A DNA stretch of 64,000 bases from Antedon mediterranea. Lineage: Eukaryota; Echinodermata; Crinoidea; Comatulida; Antedonidae. The position numbers and the translations under genes are program-made. Below, in pieces: positions 372 through 50,551 of this stretch (position 1 is its first letter; every line of letters starts with the position of its first letter). The notes beneath the pieces were generated by a model that was not told where the DNA came from, did no database searches, and saw nothing but the letters and a program-made list of their open reading frames with translations. The DNA lies in the NCBI RefSeq assembly GCF_964355755.1, contig NC_092670.1:34273795-34337794 (forward strand). Reading direction: 5' to 3'.

Positions 372-2869
372 CTACAGAATAAAGTATTCAGGTGATTTGC
401 TGACAGTGTGATGTGGTGTACTAGTGTAATGTGGTGTACTAGTGGGAGCTGGTGTACTAGTGGGAGCTGGTGTACTAGTGTAATGTGGTGTACTAGTGCG
501 AGCTGGTGTACTAGTGGGAGCTGGTATACTAGTGTAATGTGGTGTACTAGTGCGAGCTGGTGTACTAGTGGGAGCTGGTATACTAGTGTAATGTGGTGTA
601 CTAGTGCGAGCTGGTGTACTAGTGGGAGCTGGTATACTAGTGTAATGTGGTGTACTAGTGCGAGCTGGTGTACTAGTGGGAGCTGGTATACTAGTGCGAG
701 CTGGTGTACTAGTGCGAGCTGGTGTACTAGTGCGAGCTGGTGTACTAGTGTAATGTGGTGTGCTAGTGGGAGCCGGTGTACTAGTGTAATGTGGTGTGCT
801 AGTGGGAGCTGGTGTACTAGTGTAATGTGGTGTACTAGTGCGAGCTGGTGTACTAGTGTAATGTGGTGTACTAGTGCGAGCTGGTGTACTAGTGGGAGCT
901 GGTATACTAGTGTAATGTGGTGTACTAGTGCGAGCTGGTGTACTAGTGGGAGCTGGTATACTAGTGTAATGTGGTGTACTAGTGCGAGCTGGTGTACTAG
1001 TGGGAGCTGGTATACTAGTGCGAGCTGGTGTACTAGTGGGAGCTGGTATACTAGTGCGAGCTGGTGTACTAGTGCGAGCTGGTGTACTAGTGTAATGTGG
1101 TGTGCTAGTGGGAGCCGGTGTACTAGTGTAATGTGGTGTGCTAGTGGGAGCTGGTGTACTAGTGTAATGTGGTGTACTAGTGCGAGCAGGTGTACTAGTG
1201 CGAGCTGGTGTACTAGTGTAATGTGGTGTACTAGTGCGAGCTGGTGTACTAGTGTAATGTGGTGTACTAGTGCGAGCTGGTATTCTACTATGATGAGCTT
1301 GACTTTCTGCCTGTTGTTGGTTTGTTGGGTAGTAGTTTTGATGTGTAGGTCTATGCATTGTGTGGTGGTGGTATTGTTGTGGTTGTGGCGGTGGTTGTTG
1401 TTGTTGTGGTGCAAATAACTGCATGATCTGCATCATCCTCTGATGGTCTCTCTGTCTGTCTTCTTGTCGGTTTCTTTCAGCCTCTCGCGCCATGAGTTGC
1501 ATCCAATCCCGGTGGTGTTGTGCTGATCTTTCAGAGTGCCGCATATATCTTTCTTCTGCCTCCCTGTCTTGCTTCGCCATCTCTTTTGAAAGCATTTCAA
1601 AAGATTCCTGCAATTTTGTTTTTTTTCGCTTTCGACGGGGCTGCTCATTTCCTAACAAATTATAGAAAATAATTGTAAAAAACAGAATAAATTCCAAAAT
1701 GAATGGGAAGCTGTATAGCAATGTTCCAATTTGTGTTGGAAATTATTAATTCTTCCTTATGTTGGGGTAGATTAACTTTATAACAAAAAGACAACTTTAG
1801 GAAAACTAATAAAAGGAAGTGGATTAATTTAACCACTATTTCGTTTTGTTTTACTTAAGTTAGGTTTAGATTAGTTATTTTACTAACCTTCATTCTCTCT
1901 AGCAAGCCTTTGTTGTTCTTGGTGAGGATTGGCCTGTCCAGGAATAGCATCGTCTTCAACATCCTGATCAGGTAGTCGTATATCATCAATGTCAGATTCC
2001 TCGTCATTTTGACTATCATCTGCAGTCACTGGTACAATTTTATAAAAAATGTTAATTTCAAAATTTTAAACTTCAGTAGAATATTATTATTAATTTTGTG
2101 AATGAACTACAACATATTGCTCTTTTTAAAAACCATGATGACCATTGTTGAACACAAATCTAGTACTACTGTGTATGTTAATCAGGTTGCATATTTATTT
2201 ATACCGTACTTCACTAAAAATTATTTTTAAATTAAACCTTGAAAAATAAGTAAATTCTTACCAACACTATCATTCTCTTCATCAACATCTTCGACATGTG
2301 GGCCGTCCTCATGCTGCTGTTCTTCCTCAGCTCCTATATTTATTAACACAATCCATGGAAAATAATATTGTTACTGTACATTTAGCATGATTCCTCTTTT
2401 TTAATTTATCCATGCCGAGGCTAGGCCTATAATAGGTAGGCTATAAATGCCTACTACTATAGAATAGCCTATTAGTAGGCTATATAGCTATAGGCCTAGT
2501 TATTTAATTATAAATTAAAATGTACATACCATCGGCAACTCCTACTGCCTGGTTCCTATCCATTAGATAGTGAGGGGCAGCTATGGCCCGATCTCCCAAA
2601 ATTCGGTCCAAAACCTCGTAATGAGGACAAGTAATTCTGTCCCTCCCAGACTTCGAGTTGTTGTCCTTTGCAATGTTGTATTGCTTTCGGAGGGTTTTAA
2701 GTTTCGTGTTCACTTGCTTCGGAGACAAATCTACATTGTATTCCTGTTTTATTTTGTTCGAAATTTCTTTATAAATAGTGCTGTCTCTTTTATTACCCAT
2801 TAGTTTTCCTGAAAGTTTCGCTTCCCACCACAAATTAATAGTAAAAACGGTAACTTCTTCGGTCCACAT
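372..2869 (-). CDS. Myb/SANT-like DNA-binding protein with long TSTPxx repeat tail (4 coding exons)
   Basis: Coding exons on the minus strand are 2869-2530, 2333-2262, 2028-1888 and 1651-372. All junctions are GT-AG and each intron is in phase 1, giving 610 residues. The start at 2869 opens a helix-rich domain (residues about 1-95, beginning MWTEEVTVFTINLWWEAKL, with K/R-rich helices and KQVNTKLKTLRKQY) of the kind seen in Myb/SANT-like or MADF-type proteins, so sequence-specific DNA binding in the nucleus is the likely role. Exons 2-3 are strongly acidic. Exon 4 starts with a basic NLS-like PRRKRKKTK, then a long Glu/Arg/Gln-rich coiled coil, a Gln/Pro run, and about 49 hexapeptides of the type TSTPAR, TSTPHY, TSTPAP or TSIPAP up to a short unique tail. 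Such proteins often derive from or accompany PIF/Harbinger transposons; no transposase is adjacent here. Exon structure is firm, family moderately firm, function inferred. Confidence 0.75.
408..1290. repeat. 18-bp coding minisatellite, about 49 copies
   Basis: Units of the form GGTGTACTAGTGNNNNNN run head to tail inside the last exon of the SANT-like gene. Three main unit types differ in the last six bases (TAATGT, GCGAGCT-like, GGGAGCT-like) and in GTA/ATA. The order of types repeats in blocks, so there is a higher-order structure. Length is a multiple of three, so copy-number change keeps the frame. Long open frames on the other strand and frames are by-products of the repeat. Confidence 0.95.
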
Positions 2870-2944
2870 TATCGCACGTGTGTTAAACAACTGTCGCAGC
2901 GACAAAAAAATCAAAACACAACACGATGTTGACCTCATGTCACA

Positions 2945-3177
2945 GGTCAAAAAATATACGGTATTTTTTATTGGCAGCAGAAAAGGGTACAGAAAATACG
3001 GTATAAATTTGTAAATACCGTATTTTATCCACAAATTTTGTGGGGAAAATACGGTATACAAAATACGGTATTTTTTTTATGAGCGCAGTTTCTGCTGCCA
3101 AAAAAATACCGTATATATACGGTATTCAAAATATACCGTATAATATACGGTATTTACTTGGCAGCAGAAACAGGGCC
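2945..3177. repeat. Hairpin MITE cluster rich in ATACCGTAT palindromes
   Basis: TACGGTATTTT and its complement recur many times. The part 3084-3177 has inverted ends of the form TTTCTGCTGCCAA...TTGGCAGCAGAAACAGGGCC, and another GGCAGCAGAAAAGGG end lies at 2972. A related element lies at 10348-10441. It sits directly upstream of the SANT-like gene start and may overlap its promoter. Confidence 0.7.
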
Positions 3178-22050: not shown

Positions 22051-22642
22051 TCAGTCTACACAATCAAACTTTATGTGACAAACAAATTTGATGTGCCCAT
22101 ATTATATATGGACATGATGATGTCATATCACTACCGTTCCATATTTAAGTACAGTCAGTATATCACAACCATATTTGAGGGCCCTAAATGATCAGTTCTA
22201 TTCGAGGGCCCTAAACAGTTCTATTTGAAACTGGATAGGCTACCCTCAGTAAAGATGATAAAAAATAAATAAATTTGGGCACATCATACTTTTGATCATC
22301 AAACTTGTTTGATAGTGTATTTGTTTGTTTTATCTTTATACTGGGTGACCTCTTCAGTCAAAGACTGATCTCCCAGAGGGCCCAGTTGGTGATCAGTGGC
22401 TGTGATGTACTACTACACCGGGGTAACCCCCTACTCGTCTTGAAAGATGTACTAGGTTCTTTAAAGTGCACACGAGCAAGTTGTGTACACTGGACCAACG
22501 GTTTATAGTCCTTATCCGAGAAGACTCGTTCTACCACCAGAACCATAGAGTGAGTGAGCCTCGAACCCATGCCGATGTTATGGCTACGTGATTACGGTTC
22601 CACTGTCTTAACCGCTCGGCCACTCACTGTAGACAGAGCTTT
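22051..22642. mobile_element. CTCTGTCTAC-family MITE, copy 3, split by a SINE
   Basis: The left end GTCTACACAATCAAACTTTA is at 22054. The right end runs TTGTTTGATAGTGTA at about 22319, is interrupted by the SINE at 22322-22628, and resumes TGTAGACAGAGCTTT at 22628-22642. Confidence 0.8.
22322..22628 (-). mobile_element. tRNA-derived SINE (Leu/Ser-like head) nested in a MITE
   Basis: On the minus strand the head has A-box GTGGCCGAGCGGTTAAGACA and B-box GGGTTCGAGGCTC (22625-22555), as in a class II tRNA. The body includes GTGGTAGAACGAGTCTTCTC, GATAAGGACTATAAACCGT and AAAGAACCTAGTACATCTTT, and ends in an A/C-rich tail near 22322. A short TGTA repeat at the borders is a possible target duplication. 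Confidence 0.8.
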
Positions 22643-48100: not shown

Positions 48101-50551
48101 TCTAATTTAATATCAAAACAATCAATTTGTTTAAAGGCTTTTGTTAAGATAACGCAATCATAAAGTTACTGCGAAGATGATTTTAAACAACAAAATGTAA
48201 AAACAATGCATTACTATACAGAATCGCTGTACAAAATAAACGCGAACGCGTAGAGCACAGCCAGAGTCGTTAATTTAAATGGGTTAAAGCTATTTTTTTT
48301 TGTTTAACGCCGTATTATTATAAAATTATTATTTTCTTTGGCGGAAATCAGCCACCGTACAATTGTAGTAATGTTTGACATTAAAATAGATTTCTTAATA
48401 ATATTACAATTTACATACTACTGTACTGTATTTAATTTTTTTTAAATATTTTGTATTTATTTTTTTTGTATTAATAATATTTGTCCTCAGTGAGGAAATT
48501 CGGATTAGGCCCTCCACGGACCCACGGCAGCCAGCAGTGCAGCGCCTACCAGATTAGGCAATGAGAGTAAAGCATCTTGCCTAAGGATGCAATTAGTATG
48601 GTACAGATAACCTCGAACCCATGCCTATCAGATGCTAGTCCGATATTACCATTACACCATCACTCTCCAGTATATACAGCACCCGCCACGATTTCTAGAC
48701 GGATTCCCATCCAGAACGCAACCGGGCCCAACGTTGCTTAACTTCGGTGATCTGACGAGAACCGGTGTTTCAACGCAGTATGGCCGTATAGCAACATTTG
48801 AGCCGACTGTCCATACTGGTACCATCACATAATGGTCAGCAAGGTTATAGAAACAAAAAGTAGTATAAATTGGAAACTTATTCATTATTTATTTTACATG
48901 TTCCTAATTATGAATGAACAGTAATATAGTATGCTATAAATACATCCACAATCAAGGGTACTGTATGTCCCACAAAAACATGAAAAATGAAGATTAATTA
49001 AATCAAACTTTGAATACTGGTTATTTTGTAGTTTTTAATAAATTTAATCCCTTCGGTAAAAAAAAAAAGAATGTTTTCTCATATAAAATGACAAAATAAA
49101 TGGTCAATTTCAACCAAAACCCCATTGACTGGCAGCTAATTTGACTATTTTTTGCTTTAAATTACAGTTTTTCAAGTAATACATTTTTTTTCAATTCAAT
49201 TTTTGTTCGAAGTGGATAACTATTATTTTTATGTCACATTAAAATGACATGTATTCAACAAAAAAATGTTAAAAATTATTTTTTCAGGGGGAAAATATGT
49301 CTTGAAACATAAAAATAGTGTATGTCTGGCTCTACATTGCACACCAATTGCAACAACTCGCTAGCATAATAATATGAGCAAAAAAATAATTTAAGATACT
49401 TTTAATATTGATTCCATCTTAAAGCAGGTATTGCCTTTTTTATCATACTATACATTACTTAACCATAATTTATCACATTGAAAACAAAATAAATCACAAC
49501 AAATGATTTGACATTATTAGACATATTCAAAAATAAATTTAAAGTTTAAACTAGATTTAATTTGAAAACATAACACCACATCGATCCCTGGCCATAAGAA
49601 TATACTCTGAAAAATTGAATTAGCTAGATGAAACTGATATCAAGATAATTGATGGAAAAGAAAGGAAAGAATAAATAAATATTTGAATTCTCATTCAAAG
49701 CAAGTTCATAAAATAAATTAAAAGCAACATCACTCCTTTTATATTGGAAAATGTGTGTCGGTGTGCTGTACTAGCTTTGATTTATCAAAACATGGTAGTA
49801 TTAGGATGTTTATGAATTGATATAGAGTGTGGAAGGTTGTGATGATGCAATGATGATGGTTGCTAGAGTACCTGGGCTAGGCTAGTGGTAGTAAACTTGT
49901 AGTGGTGCAGCATGTGTTGGTATGGAGTTTTGTAAATTCAGTAGGAGGGAGAGGAGGATGACAAGTAATAATAATATTAATACTGTACTACTGCTACTAG
50001 TCTATATAATTTATATAGGTCCTAGGCTATAATAAAATTAATCGGTATAGGCATAGGTCTTAATTATTAGAGTGTAGGCCCTCCTAGACGGCCTGGCATA
50101 ATGGATGGCTAGTCTACCGACTTAGCTGCTAAGTAGGCTAGTTAGGCCTAGTCTAGAGACCCACCAGACCCCTGCTTCCTACTACTACTAGCCTACACAC
50201 AGTTATTTATTTATTATAATTTATTGTATTGCTTTTACCATTGAATAGAAACTATAAATGTTGAATTATTAACTATTTTATTAATCAATTTAAAATATTA
50301 TTATTTAATAAACTGATAATTCATAATTGTTTGTTTAGGCCTAATAAAGTAGTATTAAAGTAGTCACATCAGATAATATTATTCCCAGAAACCTAGTCCT
50401 AGGCTAGCTTAACTGTCCTAGCTAGGATAGCATGCTAGGCTAGCTGCTGCAGGCAATGAATGATGCTTCACGTTCGCAGTAAATACACCCACCGAATCAG
50501 CAACTTACCTTCTTCGTTTCTATCATCCTTATGTGTGACACTTTCAGCCAT
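24299..50551 (-). CDS. BFR1-like coiled-coil protein with two alternative first exons (11 coding exons per form)
   Basis: Two candidate first exons, 50551-50509 (MAESVTHKDDRNEE) and 45929-45878 (MSFRRRQFYSVLPSLQE), both end in phase 1 and join 33300-33188. Further exons are 32890-32738, 32331-32159, 31449-31377, 30083-29975, 29550-29406, 28439-28243, 26085-25931, 25537-25421 and 24817-24299. All splice sites are GT-AG in phase, giving 598 or 601 residues; the donor after 33188 is weak. Exons 3-7 form charged coiled coils with SIDKLESMIKRLEYQLEK and EIDELYSQKRKIQANYQVEL. Then come EPFSYKLKVCNILNIYLVR and ISHPPDIFPLFSEVGLTAPS, which resemble the conserved middle of BFR1/proton-pump-interactor-like proteins (an RNA-associated, ER/polysome family in yeast). 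The tail is acidic and Ser/Thr-rich. Gene structure is firm; the family link is from motif memory only. Confidence 0.8.
25690..25830. mobile_element. Hairpin MITE
   Basis: AATGAATGC-like ends with inverted GCAATGG(T/A)ACAAATAATTTCAT arms meet around 25755. Part of the arm (ATGGTACAAATAATGGCATG) recurs at about 44078, and a different hairpin at 21680-21790 has the same CCAATCAAATG flank. Confidence 0.6.
26310..26450. mobile_element. CTCTGTCTAC-family MITE, copy 4
   Basis: Nearly intact palindrome with AAGCTCTGTCTACACTATCA and TTTGATAGTGTAGACAAAGC ends, flanked by TA-rich sequence. Confidence 0.9.
26668..26750. mobile_element. CTCTGTCTAC-family MITE, copy 5, left-truncated
   Basis: Only the right half remains, from ATGATGATGTCATATCACTA to TAGACAGAGCTTA. 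Confidence 0.8.
27095..27135. repeat. (TA)n microsatellite
   Basis: About 20 uninterrupted TA dinucleotides in an intron of the BFR1-like gene. Confidence 0.95.
27222..27859 (+). mobile_element. TTAA-type MITE, copy 3
   Basis: This copy has matching ends TTAAAGACACCTTCCCTAC and GTAGGGAAGGTGTCTTTAA, a perfect 19-bp inverted repeat that includes the TTAA. The interior matches copies 1 and 2. Confidence 0.9.
28718..29290. repeat. 24-bp intronic minisatellite split by a MITE
   Basis: About 14 copies of a unit containing CTTTCCAAATATGGTTATCC run to 29049. Then a 181-bp MITE intervenes and about two more units follow at 29233-29290. Open frames across it (such as YGYPLLSK repeats) are repeat artefacts inside an intron of the minus-strand gene. 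Confidence 0.95.
29052..29232. mobile_element. GGTTCCCAC-family MITE inside the minisatellite
   Basis: Ends AAGCTTGGTTCCCACTAG and CTAGTGGGAACCACGCTT frame inverted arms with GTAACGCAA/TTGCGTTACG and AGCGAA/TTCGCT words. Flanks are TTTA and GACTTTCC, reconstructing the uninterrupted 24-bp unit. Confidence 0.9.
29751..29885. mobile_element. CTCTGTCTAC-family MITE, copy 6
   Basis: Good left end (TCTCTGTCTATACTATCAAA) and interior, with a degraded right end after ACATCACAGTTTTTT. Confidence 0.75.
30121..30281. mobile_element. CTCTGTCTAC-family MITE, copy 7
   Basis: Complete copy with ends AAACTCTGTTTACACTATCA and TTTGATAGTGTAGAAAGAGC. Confidence 0.85.
30341..31078. mobile_element. Possible non-autonomous Harbinger-like element with relic exon
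   Basis: Ends TTAGGGCCTGTTCGTAGGGG and the near-complement CGTACGAACACGACCTTA are about 735 bp apart and flanked by TTA, a target-site size typical of PIF/Harbinger. The minus strand between has an 88-residue frame (30839-30573; MPLNADNPAEI..., Pro/Arg-rich with a repeated PAAPR) that might be a relic of a transposon gene. Tentative. Confidence 0.45.
31820..32045. mobile_element. TIR-flanked MITE
   Basis: CCCTTTCACACCAAACTCTG at the left and CTGGTGTAAAAGGTGTATT at the right are diverged inverted copies; the inner part is unique. It lies in an intron. Confidence 0.45.
33443..33588. mobile_element. Diverged GGTTCCCAC-family MITE abutting the 43-bp array
   Basis: Left end AAGCTTAATTCCCACAAGAG and right end CTCACAACCAAGCTTT enclose arms with CGACGTAACGCAATG-type words. 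The right terminal CCAAGCTTTAG is also the start of the tandem unit that follows. Confidence 0.65.
33581..34654. repeat. 43-bp minisatellite, 25 copies
   Basis: The unit starts AAGCTTTAGTAACCAGCCTA and ends AAAACCATCAACC. The 1,074 bp equal 25 units, nearly identical except for occasional CAACT or CCACT at the junction. It lies in the large first intron of the BFR1-like gene. Confidence 0.97.
34670..34785. mobile_element. Half of a GGTTCCCAC-family MITE after the array
   Basis: GCTAACGCAAGCGAATTGAC and CTAGTGAGACCATGCTTTAG resemble the right-hand arm of the element at 29052-29232. Together with 33443-33588 the array is bracketed by copies or halves of this family. Confidence 0.5.
35524..35709. 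mobile_element. GC-rich perfect-hairpin MITE
   Basis: Ends AAGGGTCGTTCACACCTGTT and AACAGGTGTGAAAGACCCTT. The arms (CCGGCACGG, TTTCACGCGGCTA) mirror each other around 35612. Its GC content is far above that of the flanks. TAA/TTA at the borders may be the target duplication. Confidence 0.85.
35712..35875 (+). mobile_element. tRNA-derived SINE with duplicated B box
   Basis: A-box GTAGCTTAGTGGTTAACGTG is followed by B-box GGTTCGATCCTGACC, then a second tandem copy (CCAGGGTTCAATCCTGACC). The tail CTCCACTCTATAAGCCTC follows. It sits immediately after the hairpin MITE. Confidence 0.75.
35900..38455. other. Large intron segment, nothing recognised
   Basis: AT-rich intronic DNA of the minus-strand gene. 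A GC-richer patch at about 36480-36640 on the minus strand has a short open frame without recognisable similarity. Confidence 0.4.
38458..38612. mobile_element. CTCTGTCTAC-family MITE, copy 8
   Basis: Complete copy, AAGCTTTGTCTACACTGTCA to TTTGATAGTGTAGACAGAGC, flanked by TTA on the left (CTTA before AGC) and TTA on the right. Confidence 0.9.
39345..39780. repeat. ~110-bp imperfect tandem repeat, about four units
   Basis: Each unit contains CCATTCACAC, a TTTTTGTTTT run, AATCTCTATTCTGTCAAAGA and TTGTATTATTTAGT-like words. Units diverge towards the right end, where the TTAA MITE starts at 39780. Confidence 0.75.
39780..40407 (+). mobile_element. TTAA-type MITE, copy 4
   Basis: Left end TTAAAGATCTACAGTTTGTG is diverged, right end GTAGGTAAGGGGTCTTTAA intact; interior colinear with copy 3. 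It has an extra GTAGGCCTATT insertion near the right side. Confidence 0.85.
40410..45877. other. Large intron segment
   Basis: Mostly unique AT-rich DNA. Only the dispersed GTCCCCCTG-family fragment at 42950-43065 and short reading frames without similarity were seen. Confidence 0.4.
42950..43065 (-). repeat. GTCCCCCTG-family repeat, copy 3 (partial)
   Basis: Contains TTGCTTTAAATTACATTTTT and CTATTATGTGACA words shared with the other copies; the terminal GTCCCC part is missing. Confidence 0.6.
45878..45929 (-). CDS. Alternative first exon of the BFR1-like gene (internal promoter)
   Basis: ATG at 45927-45929 reads MSFRRRQFYSVLPSLQE and then G|GTGAGT, phase 1, matching the phase required by the exon at 33300. 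The 50.5-kb exon ends in the same phase with the same GAAG|GT context. A transcript from here would swap 14 acidic for 17 basic/aromatic N-terminal residues. Confidence 0.65.
46130..46870. repeat. Tandem duplication, three units, middle one deleted
   Basis: A unit starting GCATGGATCCTTCCAT occurs at 46136, 46436 and 46552. The first and third are about 300 bp and nearly identical. The second stops after TTTCTATTCTA and jumps to ACAAAATACTTTTGGTTAGG. Confidence 0.85.
47857..48367. mobile_element. Foldback element with ~60-bp inverted ends
   Basis: Left end ACAATTGTACCGTGGCTGAT...CCGCCAAAGAAAAAAATTAT and right end complement ...GGCGGAAATCAGCCACCGTA plus CAATTGT are 510 bp apart. The interior is unique and has no long frame. 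Confidence 0.8.
48486..48792 (-). mobile_element. Composite SINE: 5S rRNA-like head + tRNA-like block + body
   Basis: Reading on the minus strand, 48792-48672 aligns end to end with 5S rRNA. It has ACGGCCATACTGCGTTGAAA, GATCACCGAAGTTAAGCA (box A region), GGATGGGAATCCGTC (box C region) and GGGTGCTGTATA at the 3' end. Then 48668-48605 is tRNA-like (TGATGGTGTAATGGTAA and GGGTTCGAGGTTA). The body 48604-48486 contains CTTAGGCAAGATGCTTTAC and GGCTGCCGTGGGTCCGTGG, and leads into an A/T-rich tail. A chimeric 5S-tRNA head is known from AmnSINE1 and related Deu-SINEs of deuterostomes; assignment to that superfamily is inferred. It lies in an intron of the BFR1-like gene in the gene's orientation. Confidence 0.85.
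49070..49305 (-). repeat. GTCCCCCTG-family repeat, copy 4
   Basis: Reverse copy ending TTTTTTCAGGGGGAAAATAT; contains GGATAACTATTATTTTTATG and CCATTGACTGGCAGCTAATT. Confidence 0.7.

Follow-up and report, generated by a model that had tools for sequence, protein, structure and literature searches.

Does the 5S rRNA-like sequence that adjoins a tRNA-like block in this Antedon mediterranea DNA belong to a single mobile element, or has a 5S pseudogene come to lie beside a tRNA SINE at one place only? If the two blocks are parts of one SINE, which of them supplies the start of the RNA that is copied into new sites? We examined these questions for the copy near position 48600 of the window, meaning the whole 64,000-nucleotide stretch that was analyzed.

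The SINE in the window is read on the minus strand with the 5S sequence leading. The 5S_rRNA model of Rfam (RF00001) matches the minus strand at 48671–48791 along its entire length (positions 1–120 of 120; 67.3 bits, E 5.1e-12). The 5S head is adjoined by an A box and a B box in the correct order, the body, and an A/T-rich tail. This layout confirms the succession of 5S-like block, tRNA-like block with both boxes, and body that was described in an initial annotation of the locus. The limits of the whole copy are based on the alignment of copies, which extends from the 5S start as far as ...GAGGACAAATATTAATAC. The 3′ end had been placed at 48486 and needs correction, as the true end lies at least 18 bp further, with a tail that reaches at least 48468. 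The features are as follows.

48468–48791, minus strand: whole SINE copy of the short subfamily; 5′ end near 48791, tail to 48468 or slightly further
48671–48791, minus strand: full-length 5S rRNA-derived head (RF00001 and alignment to genomic 5S genes)
48731–48745, minus strand: segment GAAGTTAAGCAACGT as located in the window copy, which we take to be the 5S A box
48705–48712, minus strand: core GGATGGGA as located in the window copy, presumably that of the 5S C box
48655–48683, minus strand: 29-mer across the 5S–tRNA junction, used for the genome pattern search
48600–48669, minus strand: tRNA-like block, which carries both boxes and has no Rfam tRNA match
48649–48659, minus strand: A box TGGTGTAATGG of the tRNA-like block, from a box search
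48609–48619, minus strand: B box GGTTCGAGGTT of the tRNA-like block, from a box search
48496–48599, minus strand: body, in which 108 bp of the long parent are missing at about 48556/48557
48485–48495, minus strand: 3′ stem CCTCACTGAGG, a remnant of CCTCAGTTTCCAGTTAAGCTTGAGG in the long parent
22360–22622, minus strand: another, older SINE that has a tRNA-like head and part of the body domain in common; outer limits approximate

When aligned with genomic 5S genes, the segment GAAGTTAAGCAACGT has the same letters in the dispersed 5S gene L021. The family consensus at the C box, GGATGGGAGACCG, is the same as in four aligned genomic 5S genes, and the window copy departs from it after the core (GA to AT). 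An RNA hairpin formed by the 3′ stem is not clearly more stable than those of shuffled sequences (z −0.8 and −1.0).

The assignment of the second block to tRNA is weak. The boxes that had been ascribed to it are present, with a score of 14/16, but the block of the window copy has no match to the Rfam tRNA model even at E 10, and the same blocks of three related copies likewise lack an Rfam tRNA match. Compared with the composite head of AmnSINE1, the element has the 5S part, and its tRNA part is recognized by the A and B boxes and by position only. We consider it unlikely that the block is not derived from tRNA and carries its boxes by chance. Such an origin would agree with the missing Rfam match and with the shuffling of the long consensus, in which 17 of 1000 sequences reach the box score. 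However, the block occupies the same position as the tRNA-like head of the related SINE at 22360–22622, which has a box score of 15/16 but also no Rfam match. Moreover, GGCATGGGTTCGAGG is common to both tRNA-like blocks, and an older copy (L094) has GGTTCGAGCC. The body domains of the two SINEs are also partly common (score 38, versus at most 17 in 500 shuffles).

Copies, age, and long and short forms

A genome search with the 29-base junction pattern returned 267 places at three or fewer mismatches, whereas the reversed-pattern control returned 0. Many copies with the same junction, for which the initial annotation had recommended a search, are thus present; its alternative of a chance 5S pseudogene, should no other copy of the junction exist, is excluded by these 267 matches. 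The element has several of the properties expected of a SINE: many dispersed copies of one short noncoding unit (the 267 junction matches), a head from an RNA polymerase III-transcribed RNA (RF00001 over its full length), which is of the 5S-derived type found in SINE3 or 5S SINEs (Repbase type), and a common 3′ end with a simple-repeat tail and variable 5′ truncation.

The 5S-like sequences themselves are common, with 6995 rough first-look candidates, although many of these may be 5S–tRNA SINE copies. Despite this abundance, we reject the explanation that a 5S pseudogene adjoins the SINE by chance, which is scarcely credible given 267 shared junctions and a control of 0. The same head is also found in 40/40 of the best copies, which were selected for the head by a whole-element query, and long copies retrieved by body sequence alone carry the 5S head as well.

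The best 40 copies are 98%–100% identical to the window copy. Their mean identity to the consensus, with the window copy included, is 99.6% (minimum 99.0%), a value biased toward young, complete copies by the use of the whole element as query. This mean identity indicates that the subfamily is recent. The window element is a real multicopy SINE rather than a chance neighbor, and its family has very probably been active recently.

The long consensus is 460 bp, and the short form is about 330 bp. Positions 2–236 and 343–409 of the long consensus align to 48790–48556 and 48557–48491, and the net length difference between the two consensuses is 108. The parent is a longer SINE of 5S–tRNA–body structure, and the window copy belongs to a short derivative from which these 108 bp are missing. 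As a member of a young, internally deleted subfamily, this copy does not look ancestral, which the initial annotation had named as one option for the fusion, and the first interpretation of the locus is as a whole partly supported. At E 1e-8, no common match was found among the 5′ flanks of the copies, and two weak common matches were found among the 3′ flanks. A search of the assembly for COX1 returned no match.

The start of the copied RNA

To locate the starts of copies, 40 long copies were picked by body sequence only, and six repeats of one C3 segmental duplication were dropped to leave 34. The start lies at nt 1–15 of the 5S in 21 of these 34 independent copies. The remaining 13 are truncated, with starts at nt 42, 43, 48, 52, 108, 120, 132, 138, 169, 170, 186, 222, and 224. 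Since intact copies have their start in the 5S, with very few starts at the tRNA-like block, the RNA that is copied into new sites very likely starts at the 5S, judging from these endpoints. In 6/40 short copies, nine bases of the 5S start recur within the 60 nt immediately upstream (downstream control, 0/40), a pattern suggestive of the enzyme copying the 5′ end of the RNA a second time.

Alternatively, transcription could be driven by the tRNA block, with the 5S carried along passively. The consensus does have A and B boxes, and two loci, L098 and L108, begin at nt 120, where the tRNA promoter would start. With a type 2 promoter at nt 133, transcripts would begin near nt 120–126 and a single round would remove the 5S, contrary to the 21 of 34 long copies that keep it from nt 1–15. 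We therefore hold this arrangement to be quite improbable. The tRNA-like block may instead be a relic or a helper.

The reading that we prefer, with a probability of roughly 0.8, is that of a recently active composite-headed SINE whose RNA comes from the 5S and whose tRNA-like block, the head of an older SINE, survives as a relic or an auxiliary site. The 5S, the tRNA-like block, the body, and the common 3′ end occur together at hundreds of places, in long and short forms and with scattered 5′ truncations. RNA polymerase III would transcribe the element from the 5S head, and the transcript would be read through to the 3′ end; TTTT is absent from both consensuses, long and short, and is present in one of seven long copies checked. 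A LINE reverse transcriptase could then recognize the 3′ end and insert copies at new sites through target-primed reverse transcription. Template switching is the probable means by which the 5S came to stand ahead of an older tRNA-type SINE; the former head of that SINE may now serve as an auxiliary factor-binding site or persist as a relic.

Relation to known SINEs

AmnSINE1 is ancient and inactive in mammals, and the copies of the window family are far younger than we presume AmnSINE1 to be. The initial annotation had cited it as the known example of a double head. AmnSINE1 is described with the same order of parts: a promoter of 5S origin, next a tRNA-derived region, then a domain, and last a 3′ tail (PMC3234267; PMC8143547). 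For AmnSINE1, a consensus of 570 bp that includes a Deu domain is given (PMC3234267); in the window family, the long form has 460 bp and the short form about 330 bp.

Descent from the Deu-SINE superfamily (AmnSINE1 and kin), with the ancestral 5S–tRNA head kept, would account for this common order. We nevertheless regard such descent as quite unlikely. Part of the body recurs in a window SINE with another type of head, which fits module shuffling, and HaSE3 of the moth Helicoverpa armigera is described as having a 5S head joined to a tRNA SINE body (PMC3272025), an arrangement akin to that of the window family. Template switching is proposed by the authors for the origin of HaSE3 (PMC3272025). 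In HaSE3, however, the 5S replaces the tRNA head, whereas here the 5S and the tRNA-like block stand in series. SINE3 of zebrafish and others shares the 5S-derived head, but its descriptions, in the portions consulted, do not mention a tRNA block in series (PMC7245038; PMC3747384), which the window family has. Hagfish SINE families are described in part of one of these papers as exchanging heads, body domains, and tails as modules (PMC7245038), as seen here, although their heads are tRNA or 7SL rather than 5S plus tRNA. Literature searches with strings of the body sequence returned unrelated titles only. We base nothing on the candidate names V, CORE, Meta, and Nin for the body domain.

We tentatively propose, at somewhat less than even odds, that the family is an independent, recently mobile 5S–tRNA double head on a non-Deu body, in which a captured 5S took over the start and may pass as 5S (with TFIIIA or ribosomal protein L5). 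If the origin is independent, the family offers a living system for testing two RNA polymerase III promoters in series. Since AmnSINE1 is inactive in mammals, the logic of its promoter cannot be observed in action. The genome examined here holds hundreds of fusion places, including some near-identical copies and both a long parent and a short derivative. In such a genome, one can test which of the two promoters operates, what preserves both, and by what route fusions arise.

Target sites and tail-bearing loci

Target-site duplications are not clear. Among long copies, a score of at least 9 is reached by 1/34, versus 0.75 (maximum 2) by mispairing. Among 39 short copies, a count that leaves out L014, which lies in a microsatellite, scores of at least 10 are reached by four (versus 0.47, maximum 2) and of at least 8 by five (versus 2.3, maximum 5). 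Of the four high-scoring copies, L039 is the only one outside simple or repeated sequence; the others are L008, L045, and L050. An exact-word test that includes L014 gives a mean of 3.2 versus 1.3 (maximum 2.2).

A partner LINE with the 3′ end ...TCAGTTTCCAGTTAAGCTTGAGGAC was not found by tail-pattern searches or among the 3′ ends of 20 LINE candidates. These 20, drawn from different score groups of 150 listed endonuclease-domain matches, gave no convincing match, and the 3′ end of the long form found nothing above control among them. One weak match to the body query, at L060, is reached by 2/200 shuffles under one scoring and by 97/200 under another, and was not counted as a partner.

The tail-pattern searches returned SINE copies. 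The exceptions to the tail pattern that were fetched (14 loci, plus one two-base slip) comprise the SINE copies L150 and L151, the duplicated places L031/L032 and L144/L145, and short insertions of the tail only. The tail-only insertions lie at about five distinct places. A 101-aa LINE-like frame lies ∼3.5 kb from the tail at L144, and a reverse transcriptase frame lies ∼1.8 kb from the tail at L147.

Structure and abundance of the 5S-headed SINE

The SINE copy in the window comprises five parts, given here in 5' to 3' order.

Parts of the window element
48791-48671, minus strand: 5S-like head, matching Rfam RF00001
about 48669-48600, minus strand: tRNA-like block with A box and B box
48599-48496, minus strand: SINE body
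48495-48485, minus strand: short inverted repeat CCTCACTGAGG
3' of the inverted repeat, to at least 48468, minus strand: A/T-rich tail

The initial annotation described a 5S-like block joined to a tRNA-like block carrying its own boxes. The 5S assignment is borne out by a score of 67.3 bits against RF00001, with the model covered full length; the heads of two copies of the longer parent form score 74.8 and 49.4 bits. The A and B boxes are also present, 40 bases apart from start to start. They match 14 of 16 informative letters, a score equalled by 17 of 1000 shuffled long consensuses. The Rfam tRNA model gave no match to this block at E 10, and derivation from a tRNA is therefore likely, but not proven.

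The check for a shared junction, proposed at the outset, gave a positive result. A 29-base pattern across the 5S-tRNA junction, with up to 3 mismatches, occurs at 267 genomic places (148 + 119), whereas the same pattern read backwards occurs at 0. When the whole element was used as the query, the best 40 places of 1348 rough candidates, window copy included, proved 98-100% identical. These 40 short copies (window plus 39 fetched) have a mean identity to their consensus of 99.6% and a minimum of 99.0%; they are the top of the ranking, and so represent the young, complete end of the family. The eleven contigs bearing the fetched places total 353.5 Mb of an assembly of 354.4 Mb in 18 contigs. Compared mutually, the 5' flanks gave no match at E 1e-8 (last 5 bases omitted, low complexity masked), and the 3' flanks, taken from 60 bases past the body, gave two weak repeat-like matches of 73-76%.

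Long and short forms

Copies with additional body sequence were found by pattern searches and by inspection of 28 fetched loci. For a sample of this long form, the extra body part alone served as the query; the best 40 of 704 rough candidates were all fetched and their heads inspected. Seven copies spread over about 5 Mb of contig C3 (19-24 Mb; L121-L123, L125, L137-L139) have common flanks and represent one duplicated insertion, leaving 34 copies counted as independent. Their spread reflects segmental duplication or a satellite-like process. On contig C5 (12.3-14.1 Mb), L096, L097 and L101 likewise appear by eye to have common flanks, as one locally duplicated insertion, and L102 probably belongs with them. 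L096 and L097 each have only one 5S, followed by head-to-tail repeats of the tRNA-plus-body part with a unit of 171 bp.

Relative to the long form, the short form is missing 108 bp from the body and 14 bp from the 3' loop. The best aligned pieces of long copies average 96.8% identity to the long consensus. This lower value, together with the 108 bp missing from the short copies, indicates that the window copy belongs to a younger, short subfamily derived from the long parent. This short subfamily has a TACAAA-type tail. Tails of the 34 long copies are of the ACCTTT type in 27, the ACATTT type (by a simple word test) in five, TACAAA in one (L128), and none of these in one.

Probable RNA start and proposed retroposition

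If a tRNA-type pol III promoter were in use, its A box (nt 133) would place the RNA start near nt 120-126, and daughter copies would lose the 5S. The 5S start is retained (nt 1-15) in 21 of the 34 independent long copies, with scattered inner starts in the other 13. Starts at nt 120 are rare, being seen in L108, one of these 34, and in L098, found separately. Moreover, 6 of the 40 short copies (L002, L017, L018, L046, L051 and L054) are preceded, in the 60 nt upstream, by a second occurrence of 9 bases from the 5S start, compared with 0 of 40 in the downstream control. These pieces perhaps arose from re-copying of the RNA's 5' end, which would again place that end at the 5S. From these patterns, it is very likely that the copied RNA starts at the 5S. 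The pol III stop TTTT is absent from both the long and short consensus and present in one of seven long copies checked.

Near-identical copies are dispersed and have a common 3' end, with scattered 5' truncation that extends down to tail-only insertions. As for other SINEs, we infer target-primed reverse transcription by a LINE. Target-site duplications are poor. Among short copies, 4 of 39 score at least 10 (0.47 by mispairing), and three of these (L008, L045, L050) lie within simple or repeated sequence, leaving L039; among long copies, 1 of 34 scores at least 9 (0.75 by mispairing). Comparisons of 20 LINE 3' ends and tail-pattern searches of the assembly found no partner LINE. At G000 C2:17690115, two tail-only SINE ends stand face to face in a near-perfect palindrome, perhaps a twin insertion.

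Relation to genomic 5S genes and to other SINEs

The SINE consensus matches a dispersed 5S gene on C3 at 98 of 124 alignment columns. With the C6 array gene that was compared, it agrees at fewer, 92 of 124. Segments GAAGTTAAGCAACGT and GGATGGGAGACCG of the SINE head are identical to those in the C3 gene. Among 47 scored 5S matches, this C3 gene (L021, G000 C3:4487846) is the only one outside C6 and has the top score, 117.4 bits. The tandem array (G000 C6 8.755-8.823 Mb; L022-L030, L062) has a spacing of about 237 bp. A LINE whose open frame runs to 1002 aa lies within it at C6:8765453, and this LINE might thus be directed to 5S arrays.

A second, older SINE in the window (about 22622-22360, minus strand) has a tRNA-like head with 15 of 16 box letters. 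An Rfam search of this head gave no match; by eye it resembles tRNA-Ser/Leu. The same SINE holds part of the window element's body domain (score 38, versus at most 17 in 500 shuffles). An older relative, L094, can be aligned, with gaps, to the body, the 3' end and the 3' half of the tRNA block. The simplest story would be that a 5S was added ahead of a tRNA SINE, perhaps via template switching. The HaSE3 report (PMC3272025) includes a proposal of template switching for the 5S head of that SINE, and module swapping is among the findings documented for hagfish SINEs (PMC7245038). However, the 5S of HaSE3 is described as replacing the tRNA (PMC3272025), whereas here the 5S and tRNA-like block stand in series. 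AmnSINE1 is described with the same order, a 5S-derived promoter and then a tRNA-derived region (PMC3234267, PMC8143547). No further 5S-tRNA head in series was met in the portion of the SINE literature surveyed.

Most of L076-L091 belong to another widespread tRNA-headed SINE family, with a GTGTGGCGCAGTG... head and a CCTTAGGCAAGACACTTTACTT...CCACCCAGGTGTATAAATGGGTACC body. Elsewhere in the window, a repetitive TSTPARTSTPHY-type open frame occupies 372-1742 (minus strand), and a nearby frame at 2507-3076 (minus strand) encodes a DNA-binding domain of Myb/SANT-like type (Pfam PF13837, E 7e-15).
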